From assembly GCF_000949865.1 (NCBI RefSeq), contig NZ_JWJH01000022.1, forward strand, positions 1 through 64,000: a DNA stretch of 64,000 nucleotides, written 5' to 3'. The stretch is from Rhizobium nepotum 39/7 (GTDB taxonomy: Bacteria; Pseudomonadota; Alphaproteobacteria; Rhizobiales; Rhizobiaceae). Under the pieces are notes generated by a model that did not search any database, was not told where the DNA came from, and worked only from the letters and a program-made list of their open reading frames with translations. Position numbers and translations under genes: made by a program. This document shows positions 745 through 46,303 of the stretch, piece after piece (position 1 is the stretch's first letter; every line of letters starts with the position of its first letter).

Positions 745-823
745 ACGATTTCTCCTTTTCCGGTGATTCGAAAGAAGGATCGCCCAGGAACCCGTTTATC
801 ACAATGATAAAGTTGCGGTTTCG

Positions 824-1564
824 CTATTTAATCAGACCGACGCGGAGAGCCTTGGCGACGGCTTGGGTGCGGTTGACCGTGTCGAGTTTTTTCGTCGCGC
901 GGTTCAGGTAATGATTGATGGTATGTTCCGACAGCTTCATGATTTCAGCGATTTCGGCGCTGGTCTTGCCGGCAGCCGTCCAGTTCAGACAGTCTATCTC
1001 CCGCTCGTTCAATGTCTCGGGAACCCGCAGATCGAGGCGGCGGATTTCAGATAGCCGGGCAAAGATGTGGCTGGAAATGTAAAAAAGTTCCGCGAGCCGG
1101 CTGGTGGGTAATATCGTCTTGTTGCCGGAAAAGGACACCGCCCCGCGCATCGTGGTGATGTCATGCACGGGAAACCACACCGAGTTGATCATCTCGAAGC
1201 GCTCGAAGAGACCGATCACCGTTTTTCTGGCGATCTGTTCGTCGTCTTCCCCCAGAAAATCCATCGAGACGGAAAAGGGCGCGGTCGACTTTTTCAACTG
1301 CGCCATTACCTTGCTTTTCTGCAGCATGCCCTCTTCGTCGTAACGCTGCAAAAGCTCGGCCGGCCAGCTGGTGATGATGGTACATTGCGACAGTTCGCTC
1401 GCCATTTCGGACGACAGGTCAAGCACCATGAAGGCCCTGAACTCCCACGCCTCCGTCAACCGCTTCAAAAACCGGAATATATCGAATTGCGTGTTCAGAC
1501 CGGCGATCTCGCGAACGCAATCAACACCAATCGACTGAACGGCGGCCGTCTCTGTTTTCTGCAT
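824..1564 (-). CDS. LuxR-family transcriptional regulator (solo)
   Basis: 246 aa, starting at ATG 1564. The N-terminal about 165 residues align in shape with an autoinducer-binding domain; the last about 65 residues form a LuxR/GerE helix-turn-helix (LNEREIDCLNWTAAGKT, then KLSEHTINHYLNRATKKL), ending on the typical basic/hydrophobic tail. No luxI-type synthase is in the window. The positions where AHL receptors carry the W-x3-Y and D-P residues read LLQRY and KSKV here, so binding of an acyl-homoserine lactone is doubtful. It is transcribed toward the binding-protein gene at 744-1 and lies downstream of the IclR gene, both on the same strand, separated from the latter by about 190 bp. Confidence 0.85.
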   Translation of the reverse strand: MQKTETAAVQSIGVDCVREIAGLNTQFDIFRFLKRLTEAWEFRAFMVLDLSSEMASELSQCTIITSWPAELLQRYDEEGMLQKSKVMAQLKKSTAPFSVSMDFLGEDDEQIARKTVIGLFERFEMINSVWFPVHDITTMRGAVSFSGNKTILPTSRLAELFYISSHIFARLSEIRRLDLRVPETLNEREIDCLNWTAAGKTSAEIAEIMKLSEHTINHYLNRATKKLDTVNRTQAVAKALRVGLIK

Positions 1565-1751
1565 GAAAGCTGTTCTTTGAAAATGAGAGAAACCGCTGCA
1601 AAGGCTGCCTTTGCCCGGAAATTGTGAGGATGTTACTCACCAAAACGATTCATGCAAACAAAAGTTGAAACTTAATTCCGAATAATCGAAAATAAGACTT
1701 AGCTTACGCTCGATCCGCAGCTTCCGTGGCGGAAATTCACGGTTTTTCCCC

Positions 1752-2621
1752 TCAATCATCCGCAACCGGAGATAATCGGCAGGCAAGCTCCGCTGAAATT
1801 TTATCGGCCGTTTCGCGCACCAGACGACCCCATTGCCGAAGCTGTTCCACATCCACGCGATAGGCTGGACCGGTGACTGAAATCGCCGCGTGAAAATTGC
1901 GTCCGGACGCCCGGACCGGCGCGGCGACGCAATGAATGCCGATCTCATGTTCCTGAAGGTCGAAACCGTAGCCCCTGCCGCGAATGGCGGTCACATCGTC
2001 CATCAATGCTTCCGGCGTCACGATCGTATTTTCCGTAAAACGGTGAAAGTCCAGTTTTGCGGCAAGCTCTGCCAGAACACCGGCAGGGAGAAGGGTCAGC
2101 GCGGCTTTGCCCACCCCCGTGCAATAGACCGGCGAGGTCTTGCCGACCTGCGAATGCATGCGCAAGGTGTGCCTGCCCTCCATCTTGTCCAGATAGGTGA
2201 TTTCCTTGCCGTTCAGGACGGCGAGATGCACGGATTCCTGCGTCGCCTCCTGCAACGCCGCCAGATGAGGGGCGGCAACGCTACGCAGATCGTTGCCGCT
2301 CCAGGCTTTGGCGGCAAATTGCAGGAGCCGCAGACCGACGGCATAGGTCTGATCGCTAGCATGGTCGACCAGACCTTCGGCGACGAGATGGGCGAGCTGG
2401 CGGTGGACCGTGCCGCGCGGCTGGCCACACGCCTCGACCACATCGGTGAAGCGCATCGGTTTTTCGGCAAAGGCGATAAGCTCCAGAAGCGAAACGGCCT
2501 TTCCAAGCGTGCCGGTCACGTTTTCCGCTTTTCGTTCCGCAACCGGAACTGCCTCGTGCTCTTTACCGTTGGGTTTTTTACCATCGGGCATGGCAACATC
2601 CACCGTCATCTGTCTTGACAT
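1752..2621 (-). CDS. IclR-family transcriptional regulator of the adjacent galactonate operon
   Basis: 289 aa from ATG 2621; an upstream TTG (2681) is rejected because it would overlap the operator, and ATG 2609 is a possible alternative. Residues about 35-95 are a winged helix-turn-helix (GTLGKAVSLLELIAF, ACGQPRGTVHRQL); the rest is the IclR effector domain, with QESVHLAVLNGKEITYLDK and YCTGVGKAAL as landmarks. It is divergent from the SDR-dgoK-dgoA-lactonase operon and a perfect 6-bp inverted repeat lies between them, so control of that operon, probably by a sugar-acid intermediate, is a reasonable inference. IclR regulators commonly control catabolic operons of this kind. Confidence 0.87.
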   Translation of the reverse strand: MSRQMTVDVAMPDGKKPNGKEHEAVPVAERKAENVTGTLGKAVSLLELIAFAEKPMRFTDVVEACGQPRGTVHRQLAHLVAEGLVDHASDQTYAVGLRLLQFAAKAWSGNDLRSVAAPHLAALQEATQESVHLAVLNGKEITYLDKMEGRHTLRMHSQVGKTSPVYCTGVGKAALTLLPAGVLAELAAKLDFHRFTENTIVTPEALMDDVTAIRGRGYGFDLQEHEIGIHCVAAPVRASGRNFHAAISVTGPAYRVDVEQLRQWGRLVRETADKISAELACRLSPVADD

Positions 2622-2662
2622 AAGCCTGCGGCCAAGAGAATAATTCCATTTAGTAAAATCTA

Positions 2663-2679
2663 GTTCCACATATTGGAAC
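2663..2679. promoter_or_regulatory. Candidate IclR operator
   Basis: GTTCCA-N5-TGGAAC, a perfect 6+6 inverted repeat in the 83-bp gap between the divergent IclR gene and the SDR gene. Shape and TTCCA/TGGAA halves resemble known IclR-family sites. Assignment to this regulator is inferred from position. Confidence 0.55.
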
Positions 2680-2704
2680 AATCAAGCCCCATTCTGGATG
2701 AGAC

Positions 2705-3475
2705 ATGCCGATGACCCAAGCCCTTTTCCCTGACCTCAAGGACGCGGGCGTGCTCGTCACCGGTGGCGGCTCCGGCATCGGGGCATCGCTGGTGGAAGCC
2801 TTTGCGATGCAGGGCGCGAAGGTCTCGTTCATCGACATCGCCGAAGAGCCGAGCGTGGCGCTCGTTGCGCGGCTTGAGGAGACAACGCGCCATCCGGTCC
2901 ATTTTTTCAGGGCCGATCTGCGCGACATAGCTGCAATCAGGCAGACCGTGGATGCGGCGGCGTCTGCGACCGGCGGCATCAAGGTGCTCGTCAACAATGC
3001 CGCATGGGACGACCGCCACGATATAGACACCGTGACGGAAGCCTATTGGGACGCCAATCAGGCCGTCAATCTCAAGCAGATGTTCTTCACGGTTCAGGCC
3101 GCGCTTCCGCATCTGAGGCAGGCCAAGGACGCCTCCATCATCAATTTTTCCTCGATCTCGTTTTTGCTGAACATGGGCGAGCTTCCCTCCTATGCTGCGG
3201 CCAAGGCCGGCATCATCGGCCTGACGAAAAGCCTCGCCGGCAGGCTGGGGCCGGAAAATATCCGCGTCAATACGCTGCTGCCGGGCATGATCGTGACGGA
3301 GCGGCAGAAGGAGTTGTGGTTGACGGACGACGCCGTCACCTCGACCACGGCGCGGCAATGCCTCAAGCGCATGCTGGTCGCCGCCGATCTGGCGGGGCCG
3401 TGCCTGTTTCTCGCATCATCGGCATCGAGCGCCATCACCGCACAATCCATAATCGTAGACGGAGGCCTGTTATAA
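2705..3475 (+). CDS. SDR-family sugar dehydrogenase (probable galactose 1-dehydrogenase)
   Basis: 256 aa classical short-chain dehydrogenase. Visible signatures: TGGGSGIG cofactor loop (19-26), acidic residue after beta-2 (FIDI, 42-45, favouring NAD), NNAA (97-100), catalytic Ser around 150-152, YAAAK with Tyr163 and Lys167, and an N-terminally extended beta-1 start. It is the first gene of an operon followed with 1-nt overlap by dgoK. With kinase, aldolase and lactonase next door, oxidation of D-galactose (or a similar aldose) to the lactone is the likely reaction; substrate is inferred from context only. An ATG 6 nt further in (2711) is an equally possible start. Confidence 0.82.
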   Translation: MPMTQALFPDLKDAGVLVTGGGSGIGASLVEAFAMQGAKVSFIDIAEEPSVALVARLEETTRHPVHFFRADLRDIAAIRQTVDAAASATGGIKVLVNNAAWDDRHDIDTVTEAYWDANQAVNLKQMFFTVQAALPHLRQAKDASIINFSSISFLLNMGELPSYAAAKAGIIGLTKSLAGRLGPENIRVNTLLPGMIVTERQKELWLTDDAVTSTTARQCLKRMLVAADLAGPCLFLASSASSAITAQSIIVDGGLL

Positions 3476-4389
3476 TGTCCGAACCCGCTTTTATCGCCGT
3501 CGACTGGGGCACGACCAGTTTCCGGCTCTGGTTGCTCAGCCGGTCCGGCGCGGTGCTGGCCGAGCGCAGAAGCGCTGAAGGCATGACGACCGCCATGCGG
3601 ACCGGTTTTGCCGAGGTGCTGCAATCGCATCTTGACGCCATCGGCGCACCGGAAAACCTGCCGGTTCTCGTCTGCGGAATGGCGGGCGCGCGGCAGGGCT
3701 GGGTCGAGGCGGGCTATATAGACGTGCCGACATCGCTTTCCGCAGTTCTTGATGGTGCGGTTCGCGTGCCGGGTCAGGAGCGGGATGTCCGCATTCTGCC
3801 GGGGCTGGCGCAACGGGACAAAAACGCGCCGGATGTGATGCGCGGCGAGGAAACGCAACTGCTCGGCGCGCTTGCCTCCTCGAGCGCTGGCAAGAAGCTG
3901 GTCTGCATGCCCGGCACCCATTCCAAATGGGTAACGGTCGAAGGCAGCGACGTAACCGGCTTTGCCACCTTCATGACCGGCGAACTGTTCGAGGTCGTCT
4001 CGAAACAGACCATCCTTTCCCATGCGGTGGCCGAGGCGGAAGCCTTTACCGGCGAGCATGAGGCCTTCAGGGCGGCCGTGCGCGACATCTACGCCAATCC
4101 GCAACTGGCGACCAACCGCCTGTTCACCCTGCGCTCCGGGCAATTGCTGCATGGCCTCACCGCAACAGACGCCAAGGCCAGGCTTTCCGGCATCATGATC
4201 GGGCTGGAAATCGCCGGTGCGCATTCCACCGCGCGGCGGGACACGCCGGTGGTGCTGATCGGCTCCGGCGCGCTCGGTGCGCTTTACGAGGGTGCATTCG
4301 CAGCCCTTGAGATTCACTATACAGTCATCGACGCAGATGAGGCCGTGCGGCGCGGATTGTTGGCCGCCGCAAATGCCATCTGGTCATAG
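3475..4389 (+). CDS. dgoK: 2-dehydro-3-deoxygalactonokinase
   Basis: 304 aa. ATG overlaps the SDR stop by one base (TAATG), indicating translational coupling. The N-terminus carries the ASKHA-type nucleotide-binding start VDWGTTSFRLWL (9-20), followed by CGMAGARQGW, a PGTHSKWV segment in the middle and GSGALGALYEGAF near the C-terminus, all characteristic of DgoK. It phosphorylates 2-keto-3-deoxygalactonate (KDGal) with ATP to give the 6-phosphate, the substrate of the aldolase encoded next. Length agrees with the family (about 290-310 aa). The frame is open further upstream inside the SDR gene, but the family N-terminus begins at this ATG. Confidence 0.93.
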   Translation: MSEPAFIAVDWGTTSFRLWLLSRSGAVLAERRSAEGMTTAMRTGFAEVLQSHLDAIGAPENLPVLVCGMAGARQGWVEAGYIDVPTSLSAVLDGAVRVPGQERDVRILPGLAQRDKNAPDVMRGEETQLLGALASSSAGKKLVCMPGTHSKWVTVEGSDVTGFATFMTGELFEVVSKQTILSHAVAEAEAFTGEHEAFRAAVRDIYANPQLATNRLFTLRSGQLLHGLTATDAKARLSGIMIGLEIAGAHSTARRDTPVVLIGSGALGALYEGAFAALEIHYTVIDADEAVRRGLLAAANAIWS

Positions 4390-4468
4390 AATTTATCATC
4401 AGAGCGGGATTTCAGGCGAAAACCGCTCACACTTTTCGCCATCCCGCTCCAGGACGAAAGACCCCATC

Positions 4469-5098
4469 ATGCGTATTCCCTTCCCTTCCATGCAATATCC
4501 GCTGATCGCCATCCTGCGCGGCGTCAAGCCCGAGGAAACCGAAGGCGTCGTCGGCGCGCTGATCGACACCGGCTTCCGCGCCATCGAAATCCCGCTCAAT
4601 TCGCCCGATCCCTTTCGTTCGATCGAGATCGCCGCGAAAATGGCGCCCGCCGATTGCCTGATCGGCGCAGGCACGGTGCTCAGCGTAGAAGACGTGGCGT
4701 CTCTGGACGCAGCCGGCGGCAAGCTGATGGTCAGCCCCAATGCCGATGCCGACGTGATCGTCGCCGCCCGCGTCAAGGGCATGGTGACGATGCCGGGCGT
4801 TTTGACCCCCACCGAGGCGCTGGTTGCGGCAAAGGCCGGGGCAACCGGGCTGAAGTTCTTTCCCGCCAGCATCATCGGCCCCGCCGGTATCAATGCCATC
4901 AGGACAATCCTGCCCAAGGATCTGCTCATCGCCGCTGTCGGCGGCGTTTCGGACAGGAATTTCGCCGAATATACCAAGGCCGGTATCCTTGCTTTCGGCC
5001 TTGGCACCAGCCTCTACAAGCCCGGCATGACAGCGGCGGACGTGCGCGAGCGCGCCACCGTCACGCTTTCGGCCTATGATGCAGCAATCGGAGGATAA
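4469..5098 (+). CDS. dgoA: 2-dehydro-3-deoxy-6-phosphogalactonate aldolase
   Basis: 209 aa class I aldolase of the KDPG/KDPGal family. It splits KDPGal into pyruvate and glyceraldehyde 3-phosphate. Landmarks: AILRG (14-18), AIEIPLNSP with Glu40, GAGTVL (66-71), LMVSPNAD, and GLKFFPAS with the Schiff-base Lys129. The start at 4469 is chosen because the family begins shortly before the AILRG strand and the upstream extension runs back into dgoK. It follows dgoK after 79 bp and its 3' end abuts the lactonase gene. IPLNSP and the operon point to the galactonate branch and away from the gluconate (Eda) branch. Confidence 0.93.
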   Translation: MRIPFPSMQYPLIAILRGVKPEETEGVVGALIDTGFRAIEIPLNSPDPFRSIEIAAKMAPADCLIGAGTVLSVEDVASLDAAGGKLMVSPNADADVIVAARVKGMVTMPGVLTPTEALVAAKAGATGLKFFPASIIGPAGINAIRTILPKDLLIAAVGGVSDRNFAEYTKAGILAFGLGTSLYKPGMTAADVRERATVTLSAYDAAIGG

Positions 5099-5102
5099 GA
5101 GC

Positions 5103-5990
5103 TTGGCGAGTGTTTTTCCCTTTGCCGGACGCACCCTTGACGAAACGCCGTTGACGCTCGGCGAAGGCCCGACCTTCGATCCGGCGACCGGCACCGCATG
5201 GTGGTTCAATATTCTCGGGCGGGAGCTGCATGAACTGCATCTCGCTTCCGGCCGCAAGAGCGTGCATGCCCTGCCCTTCATGGGCAGCGCGCTGGCCAAG
5301 ATCAGCGACAGTAAACAATTGATCGCCTCCGATGACGGTCTTTTTCTTCGCGATACGGCGACCGGCGTGCTGACGCTGCATGCGGAGCTGGAAAAGGACC
5401 TACCCGGCAACCGCTCCAATGACGGACGCGTGCATCCCTCCGGCGCGCTGTGGATCGGCACCATGGGCAGGAAGGCGGAACCCGGCGCGGGCAGCATCTA
5501 CCACGTTGCCCGGGGAACCGTGACGAAGCTGTTTGCCGACATCAGCATTCCGAATTCGATCTGCTTTTCACCTGATGGCGAGACCGGATATTACGTCGAC
5601 ACCAAGGTCAACCGGCTGATGAAGGTGTCGCTCGATGCGCAGACGGGCCTTCCATCCGGCAAGGCCGAGGTCTTCATCGATTCCGCCGGCATAGACGGCG
5701 GTGTGGACGGCTCGGTCTGCGATGCCGAAGGGCATATCTGGAACGCCCGCTGGGGCGTGGGCGCTGTCGATCGTTACGATGCGGACGGCAACCATATCGA
5801 ACGATATCTGGTGCCGGCGAAACAGACGACCTGCCCGGCCTTCATCGGTCCCGATGCATCGCGCCTTCTCGTCACCTCCGCCTGCGAACATCTCGACGAC
5901 GACGCCATGGCCGCCAATCCGCAGCATGGGAAGACATTCGAACTCGGGATCGAGGTCAAGGGTAGGTTCGAGCCGCTCTACAGGCTCTAG
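5103..5990 (+). CDS. SMP-30/gluconolaconase-family lactonase
   Basis: 295 aa six-bladed propeller lactonase (SMP-30/gluconolactonase/LRE family). Metal-site landmarks are visible: LGEGPTFD near the N-terminus, NDGRVHPSGALWIGTMG, NSICFSPDG and GVDGSVCDAEGHIWNARW. It should hydrolyse the sugar lactone made by the upstream dehydrogenase. Start: TTG at 5103 has GGAGGA 7-8 nt upstream; two ATGs at 5076 and 5079 inside the dgoA 3' end are the alternatives and would give 304 or 303 aa. Last gene of the operon. A galactonate dehydratase, needed between lactone hydrolysis and KDGal, is not in the window. Confidence 0.88.
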   Translation: MASVFPFAGRTLDETPLTLGEGPTFDPATGTAWWFNILGRELHELHLASGRKSVHALPFMGSALAKISDSKQLIASDDGLFLRDTATGVLTLHAELEKDLPGNRSNDGRVHPSGALWIGTMGRKAEPGAGSIYHVARGTVTKLFADISIPNSICFSPDGETGYYVDTKVNRLMKVSLDAQTGLPSGKAEVFIDSAGIDGGVDGSVCDAEGHIWNARWGVGAVDRYDADGNHIERYLVPAKQTTCPAFIGPDASRLLVTSACEHLDDDAMAANPQHGKTFELGIEVKGRFEPLYRL

Positions 5991-5998
5991 GAGACGCC

Positions 5999-6025
5999 GG
6001 GACCGCTGGCATATGCGGCGGTCCC
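5999..6025. terminator. Stem-loop between convergent genes
   Basis: GGGACCGC and GCGGTCCC form an 8-bp perfect stem around an 11-nt loop, 9 bp after the lactonase stop and just before the stop of the convergent GGDEF-EAL gene. No T-tract follows on either strand, so it is a possible bidirectional or Rho-assisted terminator only. Confidence 0.4.
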
Positions 6026-6038
6026 CACGCCCCCCATC

Positions 6039-7391
6039 TCAGGGAATATCAGACAGGATCTCGCGATAATTCTCGTGCAGATAACGCTGGGTGGCGGCGG
6101 CATCGACGGGGCGGCCGTAGAAATAGCCCTGCCCCATGGCGCAGCCCAGAGCGCGCAGCTTTTCCTCTTCCGCCCGCTCCTCTATCCCTTCGGCCACGAC
6201 CTCGAGATCCAGCCCTTCGCACATGGCGACGATGGCCTTGATGATATGTTCCGAGGGACGGTCGCTGCTGATGCGGGACACGAAGGCGCGGTCGATCTTG
6301 ACCTTGTCGAAGGTGAAGTCGCGCAGGCGGCCGAGGCTTGACTGGCCGGTGCCGAAATCGTCGAGGGAGATGCGGACGCCCGCGCCCTGCAATTCGCTGA
6401 TGATGCGCTGCGCGGTATCGGCGGATGTCATGACAGCCGTTTCGGTGATTTCAAGCTCCAGCCGATGCGGGTCGAGGCCGACACGCGACAGGATGGAGAG
6501 AATATTATCCGCCGTGCCGGGGTCCATCAACTGCGCCGAGGACAGGTTGAAGGACAGGAAAAGCTCGCGCGGCCAGAACAGGGCCGCTTCCGCCGCCTTT
6601 CGGAGCAGCGCTTCGGACAGCGCGTCGATAAAACCCCTTTCTTCAGCCAGCGGCACGAAAACGGCCGGCGACACGAAACCGAGATCGGGGTCGTTCCAGC
6701 GGGCTAGCGCCTCGAAACCGATGACCTTCGCTTCTTCCAGCCTGACGATGGGCTGGAAATGCACATCGATCACATCGGTGATGATGGCGTTTCGCAAAGC
6801 CTGTTCTAGCTGGGTGGCGCGCTTCATCTCCTGCGCGATCTCACGCGAATAGACCGTTATCTGGCCACGGCCGCGCCGCTTGGACCGATAAAGCGCCGTC
6901 TCGGCGCTTTTCAGCAAGTCGTCGAAATCATCGCCGGCGAAGGGGTAGATGGCGAAACCGAAGGAAGAGGAAAGCCGAACGTTGCGATCGCCGAGATCGT
7001 AAGGGGCAGAGAGCACGTCCTTGATCATGTTGCCGATGCGCTCCGCACCGGTGCGCTCGAACACCAGCGGCAGCACGAAAGCGAATTCGTCGCCGTCATG
7101 GCGCGTGACGATGGCGCCATCAGGAACGCAGGCCTTCAGGCGATGGGCGACCTGGCACAAAATCTCATCGCCCGCCTGCACGCCGAAAAGATCGTTGATG
7201 GGTTTGAAACCGTCTATATTCGCAATGCCGACAGTGAAGGGCGCGGGGTCGCTGGAGCGCTCGCTGGCGAGCATGCGGATCTTGTCCCGCAAACGATAAC
7301 GATTGCCAAGCCCCGTCAGCGGATCGCTGTAAGCCATCGCTTGCAGCTCGTTCTGGCTGACCTGCAACGCCTGCGGCTCTGCCCTTTTCAT
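6039..7391 (-). CDS. GGDEF-EAL domain protein (cyclic-di-GMP turnover)
   Basis: 450 aa with no membrane segment or sensor domain. Residues 20-180 are a GGDEF domain (DPLTGLGNR at 23-31, NIDGFKPINDLFG) whose signature is DGDEF (99-103) instead of GGDEF, with no RxxD inhibitory site in front. Residues 195-445 are an EAL domain with an apparently complete phosphodiesterase set: FQPI (212-215), EALARW (227-232), Asn282, ELEITE (312-317), DDFGTG (344-349), KID (365-367), AEGIE (400-404). Probably a phosphodiesterase, with the GGDEF half regulatory or weak. It lies 141 bp downstream of the PAS-PAS-REC gene on the same strand, which could supply its input signal. Confidence 0.9.
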   Translation of the reverse strand: MKRAEPQALQVSQNELQAMAYSDPLTGLGNRYRLRDKIRMLASERSSDPAPFTVGIANIDGFKPINDLFGVQAGDEILCQVAHRLKACVPDGAIVTRHDGDEFAFVLPLVFERTGAERIGNMIKDVLSAPYDLGDRNVRLSSSFGFAIYPFAGDDFDDLLKSAETALYRSKRRGRGQITVYSREIAQEMKRATQLEQALRNAIITDVIDVHFQPIVRLEEAKVIGFEALARWNDPDLGFVSPAVFVPLAEERGFIDALSEALLRKAAEAALFWPRELFLSFNLSSAQLMDPGTADNILSILSRVGLDPHRLELEITETAVMTSADTAQRIISELQGAGVRISLDDFGTGQSSLGRLRDFTFDKVKIDRAFVSRISSDRPSEHIIKAIVAMCEGLDLEVVAEGIEERAEEEKLRALGCAMGQGYFYGRPVDAAATQRYLHENYREILSDIP

Positions 7392-7532
7392 TCCTGCATC
7401 TCGTGAATCCCGTGTCGACCGCGATCACAATGCAGGGCAAGTATTAAAAAAGCCATAGAACCGCGAACCGAAAATGCGGCGGCGTTTTCGGAAGGTCAGC
7501 AACTCGTATAAAAATGCCCGAGTGGAAAAATT

Positions 7533-9200
7533 TCAGGCTTGCAGCCGCAGGGTATCCTTGCCGAAAAGGCGCAGGAAAACCGCCTCGACCATATCAGGGC
7601 TGACGGGTTTCAGCAGCATGTCCTCCATGCCCGCCGCCAGGCATTTGTCGAGGTCGCCCTCGAAGGCGTGGGTGATGACGCCGACAATGGGGATGCGCTC
7701 ATCGCCAGCCAGTGCGCGCATGCGGCGTGCGACCTCGAAACCGTCGATATCGCCGAGCGTCGTATCGAGCAGGACGACGGACGGCGCCAGTTCCGCAAAA
7801 AGGCGCAACGCCTCTTCACCCGATGTGGCGAGCCGGTAGGAAAGCCCCAGACCTTCAAGAATCTGCGAAAAAACGATCTGGTTGACCCTGTTGTCCTCAA
7901 CAAGAAGTATCTCGCCGACACCGCCAGTCTTGAGAATTTTGGGCAGGTCTTCGGTCATGATCTCCCAATCTTCCTCGGAGGATTTCTCACCAGGAGGCGA
8001 TTTGAAGCCGACGGCGAGATAATGCAGCAGGGAAGCGTCGATCTCCTCTTCCTCGATTGTAACGACGGGCAGGCCATGCGCGGCCGCGATATCGAGGCAT
8101 GCGACGCTCATCTGGGCGTCGACGACGACGACATCGATACCCACACCTGCGGAGGCGGCGATATCGATGAAGCTGCGCTGTTCCTCCTCGCTCGTCACCG
8201 CGGCATGATCGATACCGCCTGCGGTCAGCCGGCGGCCGGCAGCGTCAGTGAAGCGCCCGTTTTCGGACACCACCAGCACCGCCTTGCTTTTCAGCGCGCC
8301 GCCTGCGGCATCGTGGTCGTCATCCTTGCCATAGGTGGAGGCGACGAAAGCGACATGTTCGAGCGAGGGGATGACCGGCATGCCGTTCGCGTCGATGGTG
8401 GCGAGCGCGGTCACATCCTCCATCGTCGTCACCAGGAAATACCGGCCCGGCCGGCCCACGCGCTGCTTGCGGGTAATCGCCAGCACCTCCTCGCCATTCA
8501 TGCGTCTCACCCTTTCGGGAAGAATGCTCGGTGTGCCGCTATCCAGCACCATGCGATCGGCGGCGTCGATCCGGCCTGCGACCTTGCGCGAATGCAGATC
8601 GAAAACGGTGCGGCCAAGAATGCTCTCGGCGCTGGTCTCGACCATGGCGCAGCCGGATTTGTTCACGGCCGCATAGGCCAGGTTTCGATCCTTGACGAAA
8701 ACCGGAAACGGCAGATTGTCGAGAATGTCCTCGATCAGCTGCACACGCTCAAGGTCGATGCGCCACTGTTCTTCTCTTTTCTTCTGTTCGGAAATATCGG
8801 CGACGACACTGATGCCGAGGCCGGAAGGCAGCCGGTTCATGACGAAGCGCAGGAAGCGCTCTCCCTTCAGCCGTTCGGTTTTTTCCGACCGTTCCTTCCA
8901 GTGCAGCGCCAGCCGCTCGCCGATCCATTCCTCGCGTCCCAGCTGCCGGGCATTGCCGGACAGGCTTTCCACTTCCAGAAGATAACAATCGTAAAGCGCG
9001 CTCAGATAGTCGCGCAGCCGCGCGCCCGGCCCGATAACGGCCTCTTCCAGAGGAAAAAAACTCAAAAGCTTCCGGCTTGCGAAAACAATGTGATCGTTCC
9101 GGTCGTAAACGACGATCGCCGCGCCAAGCGCGTCGCAAAGGGCATCAAGCATCACCGTATGAACGCCCGCGCCGGAGGACGCCAAATCACTCAACTGCAA
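7533..9200 (-). CDS. PAS-PAS-receiver protein without a kinase domain
   Basis: 555 aa. Two PAS-like regions: about 12-115 (IVVYDRNDHIVFASRKLLSFF) and about 150-270 (ILDNLPFPVFVKDRNLAYAAVN ... GRTVFDLH). A middle segment (about 300-400) looks like a decayed receiver (KAVLVVSENGRFTDAA, VVVVDAQM). The C-terminus (428-545) is a full receiver: acidic pair VEDN (435-436), phosphorylatable Asp479 in VVLLDTTLG, Thr510, Lys531 in LLKPV. No DHp or ATPase domain separates PAS from REC, so this resembles a hybrid histidine kinase whose kinase core is missing. Partner kinase and output are unknown. The neighbouring c-di-GMP gene on the same strand is a plausible partner (inference). Confidence 0.85.
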   Translation of the reverse strand: MQLSDLASSGAGVHTVMLDALCDALGAAIVVYDRNDHIVFASRKLLSFFPLEEAVIGPGARLRDYLSALYDCYLLEVESLSGNARQLGREEWIGERLALHWKERSEKTERLKGERFLRFVMNRLPSGLGISVVADISEQKKREEQWRIDLERVQLIEDILDNLPFPVFVKDRNLAYAAVNKSGCAMVETSAESILGRTVFDLHSRKVAGRIDAADRMVLDSGTPSILPERVRRMNGEEVLAITRKQRVGRPGRYFLVTTMEDVTALATIDANGMPVIPSLEHVAFVASTYGKDDDHDAAGGALKSKAVLVVSENGRFTDAAGRRLTAGGIDHAAVTSEEEQRSFIDIAASAGVGIDVVVVDAQMSVACLDIAAAHGLPVVTIEEEEIDASLLHYLAVGFKSPPGEKSSEEDWEIMTEDLPKILKTGGVGEILLVEDNRVNQIVFSQILEGLGLSYRLATSGEEALRLFAELAPSVVLLDTTLGDIDGFEVARRMRALAGDERIPIVGVITHAFEGDLDKCLAAGMEDMLLKPVSPDMVEAVFLRLFGKDTLRLQA

Positions 9201-43905: not shown

Positions 43906-43934
43906 CTTGAATTGTTGTCCCAGGGCGATACAAT
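43906..43934 (+). promoter_or_regulatory. Housekeeping-type promoter
   Basis: CTTGAA (43906-43911) and TACAAT (43929-43934) with 17-bp spacing, close to the sigma-70-type consensus used in rhizobia. Transcription would start near 43941. Confidence 0.65.
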
Positions 43935-43940
43935 CGTTGC

Positions 43941-44046
43941 TAGATTGATTGACGAGACTTGGCGGGGGACGCCAGGCGCCGGACCTCTCTCAGGGGGATG
44001 ATGGAACGGCCTTGAAACGGGTGGTCAAACGACCGCCCGTTTTTCG
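43941..44046 (+). ncRNA. Candidate small RNA (about 105 nt) or attenuated leader
   Basis: From the predicted start after the promoter above to a strong intrinsic terminator. No coding frame with a plausible start fits. Predicted hairpins: GGCG-GGGGA-CGCC near 43965-43977 and CCTCT/AGGGG near 43984-43996. A CTCTCTCAGGGGGATG stretch in the middle is single-stranded or loop-like and could be a seed. It ends 47 bp before the barrel-protein gene, so it could also be that gene's leader with attenuation. Evidence is promoter plus terminator only. Confidence 0.5.
44016..44046 (+). terminator. Intrinsic terminator of the candidate RNA
   Basis: AACGGGTGGTC-AAAC-GACCGCCCGTT, an 11-bp stem with one T-G pair and tetraloop, followed by TTTCGTTTC. 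Confidence 0.9.
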
Positions 44047-44092
44047 TTTCTGTCATTCAAATGTTACCGAAAAACGGTTTGGTGCATTTCAG

Positions 44093-44773
44093 ATGTCAAT
44101 CTGGATTCTCCCCATGCCGCGCCACGCCTCATTTCTCTGCGCCCTGTTGTTCAGCAGCATTTCCCTCTCAACCGCCATGGCGGGAGAATTTGAAATTTCC
44201 GGTTACGGCGGCTGGCAGAGCGCGCCACACAGCGACGTGACGGTTTCGGACGGGCCGGACTTCCGGGCCGGGTGGGAAGGCAAGTCGTTTTCCAGCCCGC
44301 CCTATTGGGGGGTGCGCGGCACCTACTGGTTCGAGGAAGGCCAACTCAACAATTTCGGCCTCTCGCTCGATTTCACACATGACAAGGTCTATGCCGACGA
44401 TCAGACGCTTGCCCGCTCCGGCTGGTCGCATTTCGAATTCACCGATGGCCTGAACCTCTTGACGCTGAACGCGCTCTACCGCTTCCCGCTGGAGACATGG
44501 CCAGTGACGCCCTATGTCGGCGCGGGCATCGGCATCAACGTGCCGCATGTGGAAGTGACCCGCCCTTCGGGTAAAACCTTCGAATACCAACTCGGCGGCG
44601 CAACCCTGCAGGCACAGGCCGGCCTCAGCTACCGCATCACCGACAACTGGTCGACCTTCGTGGAATATAAGGGCACCTATTCCTTTATCGACGTGGATAT
44701 CGACAATGGCGGCAAGCTCAAGACCGATATCATGACCAATGCAGTGAATTTCGGCGTGGCCTACAAGTTCTAA
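44093..44773 (+). CDS. Outer-membrane beta-barrel protein (lipid A oxidase-like)
   Basis: 226 aa. The N-terminus (PRHASFLCALLFSSISLS, AMA cleavage) is a signal peptide. The mature protein starts EFEISGYGGWQSAPHSDV and consists of amphipathic strands (GVRGTYWFEEG, FGLSLDFTHDKVY, YRFPLETWPVTPYVGAGIG, AQAGLSYRITDNW) and ends on an aromatic C-terminal residue (VAYKF), as outer-membrane barrels do. The EISGYGGWQSAPHS start matches my memory of rhizobial LpxQ-type lipid A oxidases, but the enzyme function is unproven. Start 44093 or ATG 44114 (MPRHASF). Confidence 0.75.
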   Translation: MSIWILPMPRHASFLCALLFSSISLSTAMAGEFEISGYGGWQSAPHSDVTVSDGPDFRAGWEGKSFSSPPYWGVRGTYWFEEGQLNNFGLSLDFTHDKVYADDQTLARSGWSHFEFTDGLNLLTLNALYRFPLETWPVTPYVGAGIGINVPHVEVTRPSGKTFEYQLGGATLQAQAGLSYRITDNWSTFVEYKGTYSFIDVDIDNGGKLKTDIMTNAVNFGVAYKF

Positions 44774-45001: not shown

Positions 45002-46303
45002 CTAAGCGGAAAGCCTTGCCGGTTTCGGCCCGCCATAGGCCCAGTCCAGCAGTTCGACCGTGTGCAGGATCGGCATTTCCGTGCCGGTGGCGATCTGCGT
45101 GATGCAGCCGATATTGCCGGTGGCGATGACATCCGCCCTCGTCGCCTCGATGTTCTTGACCTTGCGCGCCTTCAGTTTTCCGGAAATCTCCGGCTGCATG
45201 ATGTTGTAGGTTCCGGCCGACCCGCAGCAGAGGTGCCCTTCCGCCGGATCGCGCACGGTGAAACCCGCCGCCTTCAGCAATTGCTTCGGCGCCATCGTGA
45301 TCTTCTGGCCGTGCTGCATGGAGCAGGCGGAATGATAGGCGACCGTCAGACCCCGGCTTTCCTGTTGCGGCAGATCGAGCGTGGCGAGATATTCGGTGAT
45401 GTCCTTCGCGAGCGCCGAGACCCGCGCGGCTTTTTCGGCATAGGCAGGGTCGAGCCGCAGCATATGGCCGTAATCCTTGATCGTGGTGCCGCAGCCGGAG
45501 GCCGTGATGATAACGGCGTCAAGACCGCCGCTCTCCATCTCCCGGGTCCATACATCGACATTGCGGCGGGCGGCGGCCAGTGCCTCCGCCTCCCGCCCCA
45601 TGTGATGCACCAGCGATCCGCAGCAGCCTTCACCCTTCGGCACAACAACCTCGACACCGAGCCGCGCCAGAAGACGGAGCGTCGCCTCATTGATGCCGGG
45701 ATCGAGCACCGGCTGGGCGCAGCCGGTGAGGATCGCGACGCGACCACGCTTTTGGCCTTCCGCCGCCCGTTCACCCGGGCGGGAGGAAGTGGAGGCGGCA
45801 GGGATGGCAGCGGGCGCGAGATCGAGCATGGATTGCAGCGGTTTCAGCGCCGGAAACTTCGCAAGCAGCCCGGCGAAAGGCCGAGCAATCCTTGCCAGAT
45901 GCAGGGCCAACCGGAAACGGCCGGGATAGGGCAGCACCGCCGCCAGAAGATTGCGGATCAGGCGATCCATGAAAGGACGCTTATAGGTCTGTTCGATATG
46001 GGCGCGGGCGTGATCGACCAGATGCATATAGTCCACGCCGGAAGGACAGGTGGTGGTGCAGGCGAGGCACGACAGGCAGCGGTCGATATGGGTGACGACT
46101 TCGCGGTCGGCCGGGCGGCTGTTTTCCAGCATGTCCTTGATGAGGTAGATGCGGCCGCGCGGGCTGTCCAGCTCGTTGCCGAGCGTGACATAGGTGGGAC
46201 AGGTGGCGGTGCAGAAGCCGCAATGCACACATTTGCGCAGGATCTTTTCCGATTCCGCCACATGCGGATCGGCCAGCTGTTCGGGCGTGAAGGATGTTTG
46301 CAT
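45002..46303 (-). CDS. glcF: Glycolate oxidase iron-sulfur subunit
   Basis: 433 aa. Two [4Fe-4S] clusters: CVHCGFCTATCP (25-36) and CLSCLACTTTCPSG (about 76-89). The rest holds CCG-type cysteine-rich blocks (GEGCCGSLVHHMG, SACSMQHG, HLCCGSAGTYN). It passes electrons from glycolate oxidation in GlcDE to the membrane quinone pool. ATG 46303 lies 3 bp after the glcE stop, so the two are one operon. The 3' end is followed by the palindromic element at 44826-44936. Confidence 0.95.
   Translation of the reverse strand: MQTSFTPEQLADPHVAESEKILRKCVHCGFCTATCPTYVTLGNELDSPRGRIYLIKDMLENSRPADREVVTHIDRCLSCLACTTTCPSGVDYMHLVDHARAHIEQTYKRPFMDRLIRNLLAAVLPYPGRFRLALHLARIARPFAGLLAKFPALKPLQSMLDLAPAAIPAASTSSRPGERAAEGQKRGRVAILTGCAQPVLDPGINEATLRLLARLGVEVVVPKGEGCCGSLVHHMGREAEALAAARRNVDVWTREMESGGLDAVIITASGCGTTIKDYGHMLRLDPAYAEKAARVSALAKDITEYLATLDLPQQESRGLTVAYHSACSMQHGQKITMAPKQLLKAAGFTVRDPAEGHLCCGSAGTYNIMQPEISGKLKARKVKNIEATRADVIATGNIGCITQIATGTEMPILHTVELLDWAYGGPKPARLSA

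Follow-up and report, generated by a model that had tools for sequence, protein, structure and literature searches.

A putative small RNA gene of Agrobacterium whose product may sequester the conserved rhizobial sRNA αr7 by loop-loop pairing

Introduction

What is encoded between the L,D-transpeptidase gene and the downstream beta-barrel protein gene on contig NZ_JWJH01000022.1 of Rhizobium nepotum 39/7, and with which RNA might its product pair? The stretch that was analysed (the window) comprises 64,000 nt, positions 1-64,000 of that contig, with its own assembly coded G000. In a preliminary description, a promoter, a body of about 105 nt and a strong terminator had been read there as a trans-acting small RNA (sRNA) gene or, alternatively, as the attenuated leader of the barrel-protein gene.

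The partner proposed below belongs to the sRNA family αr7 (RF02342), which we take to be identical with SmelC023, sra03 and smrC7. The last three are given as names of one RNA of S. meliloti in a review listing, and SmelC023 was described from Rhizobiaceae, Brucellaceae and Phyllobacteriaceae (PMC3927594). A survey from 2007 gave the function of sra03 as undetermined and suggested a link with cell division from the complementarity of its loop (PMC2245857). An identification of αr7 as RcsR1 was rejected, RcsR1 being SmelC587 according to a review.

Results

Locus, promoter and terminator

The candidate gene lies on the forward strand, downstream of a gene for an L,D-transpeptidase (YkuD, PF03734; 43024..43851, +) that adjoins the RNA in 38/38 genomes. 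It is followed by a gene for an outer-membrane beta-barrel protein (PF13505; 44114..44773, +), present in 20/39 genomes, and by a convergent gene for a CCG / 4Fe-4S domain protein (45002..46303, -), identified through its domains and synteny, which we take to be glcF.

The promoter of the preliminary description, CTTGAA-N17-TACAAT, was found at 43906-43934 (+), with CTTGAA at 43906-43911, a spacer of 17 nt and TACAAT at 43929-43934. The pattern [CT]TTG[AT]A-N17-[TC]ACA[ACG]T, which was written after the sequences had been seen, fitted 23/23 closer relatives (own genome included). By using a looser box with a fixed distance window, 19/23 closer relatives were matched (the other four do match the stricter pattern given above), together with 11/15 divergent ones, in which the box reads TTG...N16-18...TAnnnT at the proper place; the same looser test matched 1.0% (closer) and 1.8% (divergent) of letter-shuffled upstream sequences. 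Consensus scans of the window alone stayed at chance (promoter-like sites, 2 found and 1.2 expected; terminator-like sites, 5 and 4.9, respectively); it is conservation, and not such scans, that raises the candidate above chance.

The Rho-independent terminator (44014..44044, +) comprises a stem at 44014-44043 and a T-run. The strong stem with its T-run was thus found as described, except that the stem has 13 pairs (7 G-C) with a loop of 4 and not 11 bp. The predicted RNA (about 105 nt; 43941..44047, +) would begin 7 nt past the -10 box and end at the terminator T-run. In several relatives (L080, L083 and L090), the far side of the terminator stem bears a run of A, and the stem may end the converging glcF transcript as well.

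It had further been stated that no reading frame fits inside the RNA. A TTG-started frame from 43949 does cross the RNA into the barrel ORF, but single-base length differences interrupt it in relatives, and a small protein was rejected on this account; because such differences between species lie inside the RNA, it was judged non-coding. The downstream gene had been placed 47 bp past the terminator, at an ATG (44093) that proved not to be conserved; the conserved start is at 44114, about 68 bp past the terminator. Between the terminator and the barrel gene, just 3' of the former, the sequence CTGTCAT-TCAA-ATGTTAC (44050-44067) resembles what we take to be the PhoB-box consensus, and a similar sequence is present in closer relatives with the barrel gene. 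Over the window, 6 Pho-box-like sites were counted where 5.26 are expected, which is no excess over chance.

Structure

The segment 43941-44048 was folded into three hairpins with an energy of -50.2 kcal/mol (z = -4.2), and 0/200 shuffles were as good. Single folds of nine relatives gave three hairpins in 8/9, the minimum-energy fold of L091 opening hairpin 1; for L078, 3/200 shuffles folded equally well. Hairpin 1 (H1; 43958..43976, +), CUUGGCG-GGGGA-CGCCAGG, displays GGGGA in its apical loop. Among 22 sequences, pairing was kept in 98% of the cells of the H1 stem and in 100% of those of the terminator (10 counted pairs).

Covariation support for the structure was mixed. The pairing was kept and the cells with two-sided changes exceeded the shuffles (14 against 6.3, 0/500 as high), but the number of pairs with two-sided changes was no higher than in the shuffles (3 against a mean of 2.7, 282/500 as high), and the structure of hairpin 2 used in this count was met in only 38.6% of cells. 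The changes in H1 were one-sided, and two of the terminator pairs had two-sided changes. The covariation term of RNAalifold was 0.02 on alignment A1 and -2.11 on alignment A2.

Hairpin 2 (43978..44010, +), defined by folds and alignments, has an interior that splits the genus in two: one half carries ACCUCUC...GGGGGAUGAUGG and the other (divergent relatives, L075-L091) the wholly different AGCGCUUU...AGC.GC, which looks like the exchange of a clade-specific motif. The seed proposed in the preliminary description, CTCTCTCAGGGGGATG, lies in this hairpin: ACCTCTC is invariant in the 18 closer relatives aligned and absent from the divergent ones in A2, and the adjoining G-run varies.

Conservation and distribution

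Mean pairwise identity was calculated from 18 of the 23 closer relatives (five were left out, having been missed by an initial promoter pattern). It was 94% over the stretch that begins with hairpin 1 and ends with the terminator. The promoter had 83%, the interval from the ykuD stop to the -35 box 65%, that from the -10 box to hairpin 1 51%, and the first 60 nt past the terminator 81%. The third codon positions of ykuD were 79% identical (23 genomes).

The RNA was found by DNA search in 24/39 genomes of the genus. Covariance model R1 (20 training sequences) found it in 36/39, with one match per genome; outside its training set 16/19 were matched, 11 of those being divergent. Covariance model R2 (22 training sequences) found it in 38/39; of the 17 genomes outside its training set it detected 16, mostly with copies that closely resemble one of those used in training. 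All 38 copies have the L,D-transpeptidase gene on one side and the convergent glcF on the other. The sole genus genome without the RNA (G024) has only a weak partial glcF match, yet it keeps αr7 with the same first loop. Within the genus, R2 gave eight extra weak matches (E 8e-4 to 0.0065), four on the opposite strand of the same locus and four elsewhere, and the DNA search gave one extra partial match of 37 nt in G012.

In a DNA search of 297 family genomes 6 were matched, three of which (G206, G242 and G246) lie outside the genus and match in the terminator part only. The family-wide scans with both models were run with stricter filters that can lose weak matches: R1 matched 5 of the 297 genomes, all in the genus. 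At E up to 0.01, R2 gave matches in 50 genomes of a sample of 394 from the family, 42 of them from outside the genus and 8 from within it. In 42/42 of the weak R2 loci outside the genus (one locus per genome) the H1 motif TGGC[AG]GGGGA[CT]G was absent, and at E 1e-4 none of the 42 had YkuD, glcF, Tag or a barrel protein as a neighbour. The exact motif occurred in 19 named records (13 Agrobacterium, five Rhizobium or Rhizobiales and one cyanobacterial), and the cyanobacterial exact-pattern match (L039) was judged from its sequence to be due to chance. The genome of the window was assigned to Agrobacterium.

An Infernal/Rfam search had been suggested as a check. Rfam release 15 (including ar7 and ar14) gave 0 matches at gathering score in the window, with four sub-threshold matches (E 0.97 to 5.5); the predicted RNA forms a conserved family, not in Rfam 15, that is kept in 38/39 Agrobacterium genomes.

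Complementarity to αr7

The element kept across the genus is hairpin 1. Its segment UGGCGGGGGACG (43960-43971, +) is invariant at 10/12 positions in 38 genomes, one of the others varying in G030 alone and one in three genomes; the 3' arm of H1 varies more. The 11-mer complement of the core, CGTCCCCCGCC, was searched in four genomes across the genus (G000, G022, G020 and G017) after H1 had been seen. There were 17 matches, namely the RNA's own complement (four), one orthologous locus (four) and nine others without homology among themselves. In number, the matches were no commoner than those of a reversed control (7, 3, 2 and 5 against 7, 5, 3 and 2, respectively). The orthologous locus is the only non-self match common to all four genomes, and the genome of G020 has no further match besides this one and the RNA's own complement.

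This locus is αr7, with 112.2 bits in G000 and 108.4 to 112.6 bits over all four genomes, and the match coincides with the first loop of αr7, in which GUCCCCCGCC is written in upper case (strongly conserved) in the family consensus. Since the loop is conserved in the Rfam consensus, its constancy is not due to the new RNA. By DNA similarity the αr7 locus was found in 39/39 genomes of the genus, and 13 αr7 loci (12 genomes, including G024) that were scanned with Rfam all scored above the αr7 cut-off. The αr7 match L139 1406-1538 (-) lies about 3 kb from an αr14 copy, an arrangement seen in G000, G020, G017 and G007 (related loci L112-L115, L125, L130 and L156); G017 has 7 αr14 matches, 6 of them over the family cut-off.

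UGGCGGGGGACG and CGUCCCCCGCCG, from H1 and from the first loop of αr7, respectively, form 12 contiguous pairs. The loops of H1 and αr7 were extracted from the genomes by patterns that fix some letters, with all 38 and all 39 genomes matched and none dropped, and 12-13 contiguous pairs were counted in 37/38 genomes having both RNAs; in 33 of them the only G-U stands at the end of the helix. G030 has an A-C mismatch that leaves 7 pairs. Pairing is preserved through G-U where H1 has C changed to U (G004, G010 and G031) and where αr7 is altered (G038), and a tolerance of G-U alone could account for part of the asymmetry between the H1 arms. Compensatory double changes between H1 and αr7 were not seen in the 38 genomes. 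Pairing with ribosome-binding sites had been suggested as possible; the genus-wide element is H1, and its recurrent complement is αr7 and not such a site. The complementarity of H1 and αr7 is real and conserved.

Energy of the H1:αr7 helix

Interaction energies were obtained by our own calculation, in which only ungapped helices were considered and the stacking values were entered by hand. The raw H1:αr7 helix had -25.9 kcal/mol, equalled by 2/116 shuffles of the RNA and 0/63 shuffles of αr7; it was reached by 1/123 and 0/55, respectively, in a run of unequal depth (400 helices for the real pair and 80 for the controls), which was repeated with 120 for both. At an opening cost of 0.00 and 0.22 kcal/mol, the 5-nt cores of the two loops are open in both RNAs, and a first loop-loop contact is therefore cheap.

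When the opening cost of both folds was charged, the best energy was -10.9 kcal/mol, and 14/116 shuffles of the RNA and 2/63 of αr7 were as good (18/123 and 3/55 in the run of unequal depth). In this ranking H1 came second (-10.1), after GGGGGAUGA (43993..44001, +), a second stretch able to pair with the same αr7 loop, which lies in hairpin 2 and varies among relatives. The minimum-energy dimer of RNAcofold, a nested model that is unable to represent loop-loop contacts, was without the H1:αr7 contact: stem-loop 1 of αr7 stayed closed and stem-loop 2 paired with the RNA. The corrected energy is thus not clearly exceptional, and a thermodynamic advantage of H1:αr7 pairing is unproven.

Strain C58

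Genome G007 was taken as C58. Its αr14 copies C1:109473-109594 and C2:1831482-1831606 coincide with C1_109477F and C2_1831446F, and its αr7 match (112666-112535, minus strand; L156 1534-1665) has the same end (112535) as C1_112676R, as listed in Table 4 of PMC3738593. According to that table, C1_112676R (112676-112535) is intergenic and gives Northern bands of about 140 and about 100 nt. In the same table, the transcript at the αr7 position goes from 819 to 8686 RPKM (AB to IND, -TEX) and is up under virulence-inducing conditions.

The new RNA is predicted in C58 at about 665218 to 665117 on the minus strand, and none of the 24 entries of that Table 4 corresponds to it. Its position and/or the numbers of its neighbouring genes were looked for and not found in the main texts of PMC3596533, PMC3738593, PMC10469942, PMC7486931 and PMC4201532; in the main text of PMC4201532 (Hfq RIP-seq), '665', atu0669 and atu067 did not occur.

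Discussion

By computation, a putative sRNA gene was shown at this locus, with its promoter, structure, conservation and complementarity to αr7. The earlier reading as an sRNA gene holds in that an independent gene with its own predicted promoter and terminator is well supported by the comparisons of genomes; the alternative offered with it, an attenuated leader of the barrel-protein gene, is not supported. We propose that this gene is specific to the genus and that its RNA sequesters αr7 by loop-loop pairing, to which a probability of roughly 0.52 is given; from the sequences compared, the partnership with αr7 has about even odds.

The proposed course of events would be as follows. RNA polymerase would start just past TACAAT and stop at the terminator (44014-44043), giving a three-hairpin RNA of about 105 nt. 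The exposed GGGGA of hairpin 1 would then meet the exposed UCCCC in the first loop of αr7, and this contact could extend to the 12 contiguous pairs of UGGCGGGGGACG with CGUCCCCCGCCG. With the αr7 loop occupied, the RNA would act as an anti-sRNA (sponge), and the control by αr7 of its mRNAs would be lifted. We infer transcription, contact in the cell and an outcome that may be either sequestration or decay of αr7.

Several other explanations were weighed against sequestration of αr7. H1 could be constant for the sake of its own fold or for an mRNA target. An ordinary trans-acting sRNA, pairing with mRNAs through the GGGGA of H1 or, in closer relatives, through ACCUCUC, with the αr7 match as a by-product of a G-rich and a C-rich loop, is considered rather unlikely. 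It agrees with the invariance of ACCUCUC in the 18 closer relatives aligned, opposite a G-run that varies, and with an αr7 contact that is not clearly exceptional once accessibility is corrected; against it, the divergent relatives in A2 keep H1 but have no ACCUCUC, and an exact loop-to-loop match of 11 nt in a conserved sRNA, present in all four scanned genomes, looks unlikely to arise by chance. The pairing of the RNA's G-run with an αr14 copy, which was no better than that of shuffles (25/100 shuffled RNAs paired as well with the one copy, and the real pair had been searched more deeply than the controls), also speaks for the mRNA reading. The same figure, together with the lack of conservation of the G-run, makes it very improbable that the RNA is a sponge of the αr14 family of anti-Shine-Dalgarno sRNAs, although AGGGGGA can pair with UCCUCCU in the loops of the six αr14 copies tested.

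The locus might also serve mainly as a 3' UTR and terminator that the L,D-transpeptidase mRNA shares (in reverse) with that of glcF, with the RNA released by processing. Such an arrangement, which we regard as improbable, would fit the constant adjacency of YkuD, the A-run on the far side of the stem in several relatives and the region between the ykuD stop (43851) and the RNA, where no terminator-like site was found on the + strand; yet between ykuD and the RNA a promoter-like box keeps a fixed distance amid drifting sequence, and hairpin 1 is not needed by a terminator alone. The leader of the barrel-protein gene shares strand and close spacing with that gene where it is present. The gene is, however, gained or lost between the RNA and glcF, and 18/38 RNA-bearing genomes are without it, with the converging glcF as the nearest recognised downstream neighbour; in G035, G022 and G023 the RNA is about 91-93% identical to the window copy, yet the barrel gene is missing. 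Conservation therefore does not track only a leader of the downstream gene, and the leader explanation is scarcely credible.

Sequestration of αr7 would have a parallel in Caulobacter crescentus, where, according to PMC12559287, CrfA sequesters the αR8-family sRNAs SisA-D, as demonstrated by RIL-seq, mutation and target tests. Likened by that description and not by sequence, CrfA too belongs to an alphaproteobacterium, has a gene to itself and counteracts a conserved sRNA of an αr family by pairing with the functional region of the latter; it differs in that another sRNA pair is concerned, and the case for the new RNA is one of complementarity. The new RNA would be the same kind of device against another family, and its role as a sponge is provisional.

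With αr7, its proposed partner, it shares a hairpin-rich, terminator-ended intergenic RNA, whereas it gives no Rfam match at gathering score, has a G-rich and not a C-rich loop and lies at another locus. Like αr14 (RF02344), it displays a short conserved motif in a hairpin loop, whereas the αr14 loops hold CUCCUCCUCCC, and each of four genomes has between 2 and 6 αr14 copies that pass the cut-off; the new RNA has one R1 match per genome and the opposite loop composition. PmaR (C10) of A. tumefaciens is, as described in PMC6234868, an sRNA of the circular chromosome confined to Agrobacterium and one Rhizobium strain, and thus resembles the new RNA in replicon and in its restriction mainly to Agrobacterium. 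Identity of the two was rejected by comparing our fold with that description, PmaR being one long stem with a C-rich loop and the new RNA three hairpins with a G-rich loop.

The broader proposal is that Agrobacterium has a dedicated antagonist of the ancient rhizobial αr7, whose H1 loop mimics the sequence recognised by stem-loop 1 of αr7, and that this switch is missing from other genera of the family, where αr7 stands alone; it is put forward tentatively, at somewhat short of even odds. A genus-specific complement of the conserved loop of αr7 would provide a handle on αr7 function, and since virulence-inducing conditions raise the level of the C58 transcript located at αr7, the control of αr7 may be of interest to work on plant-microbe interactions.
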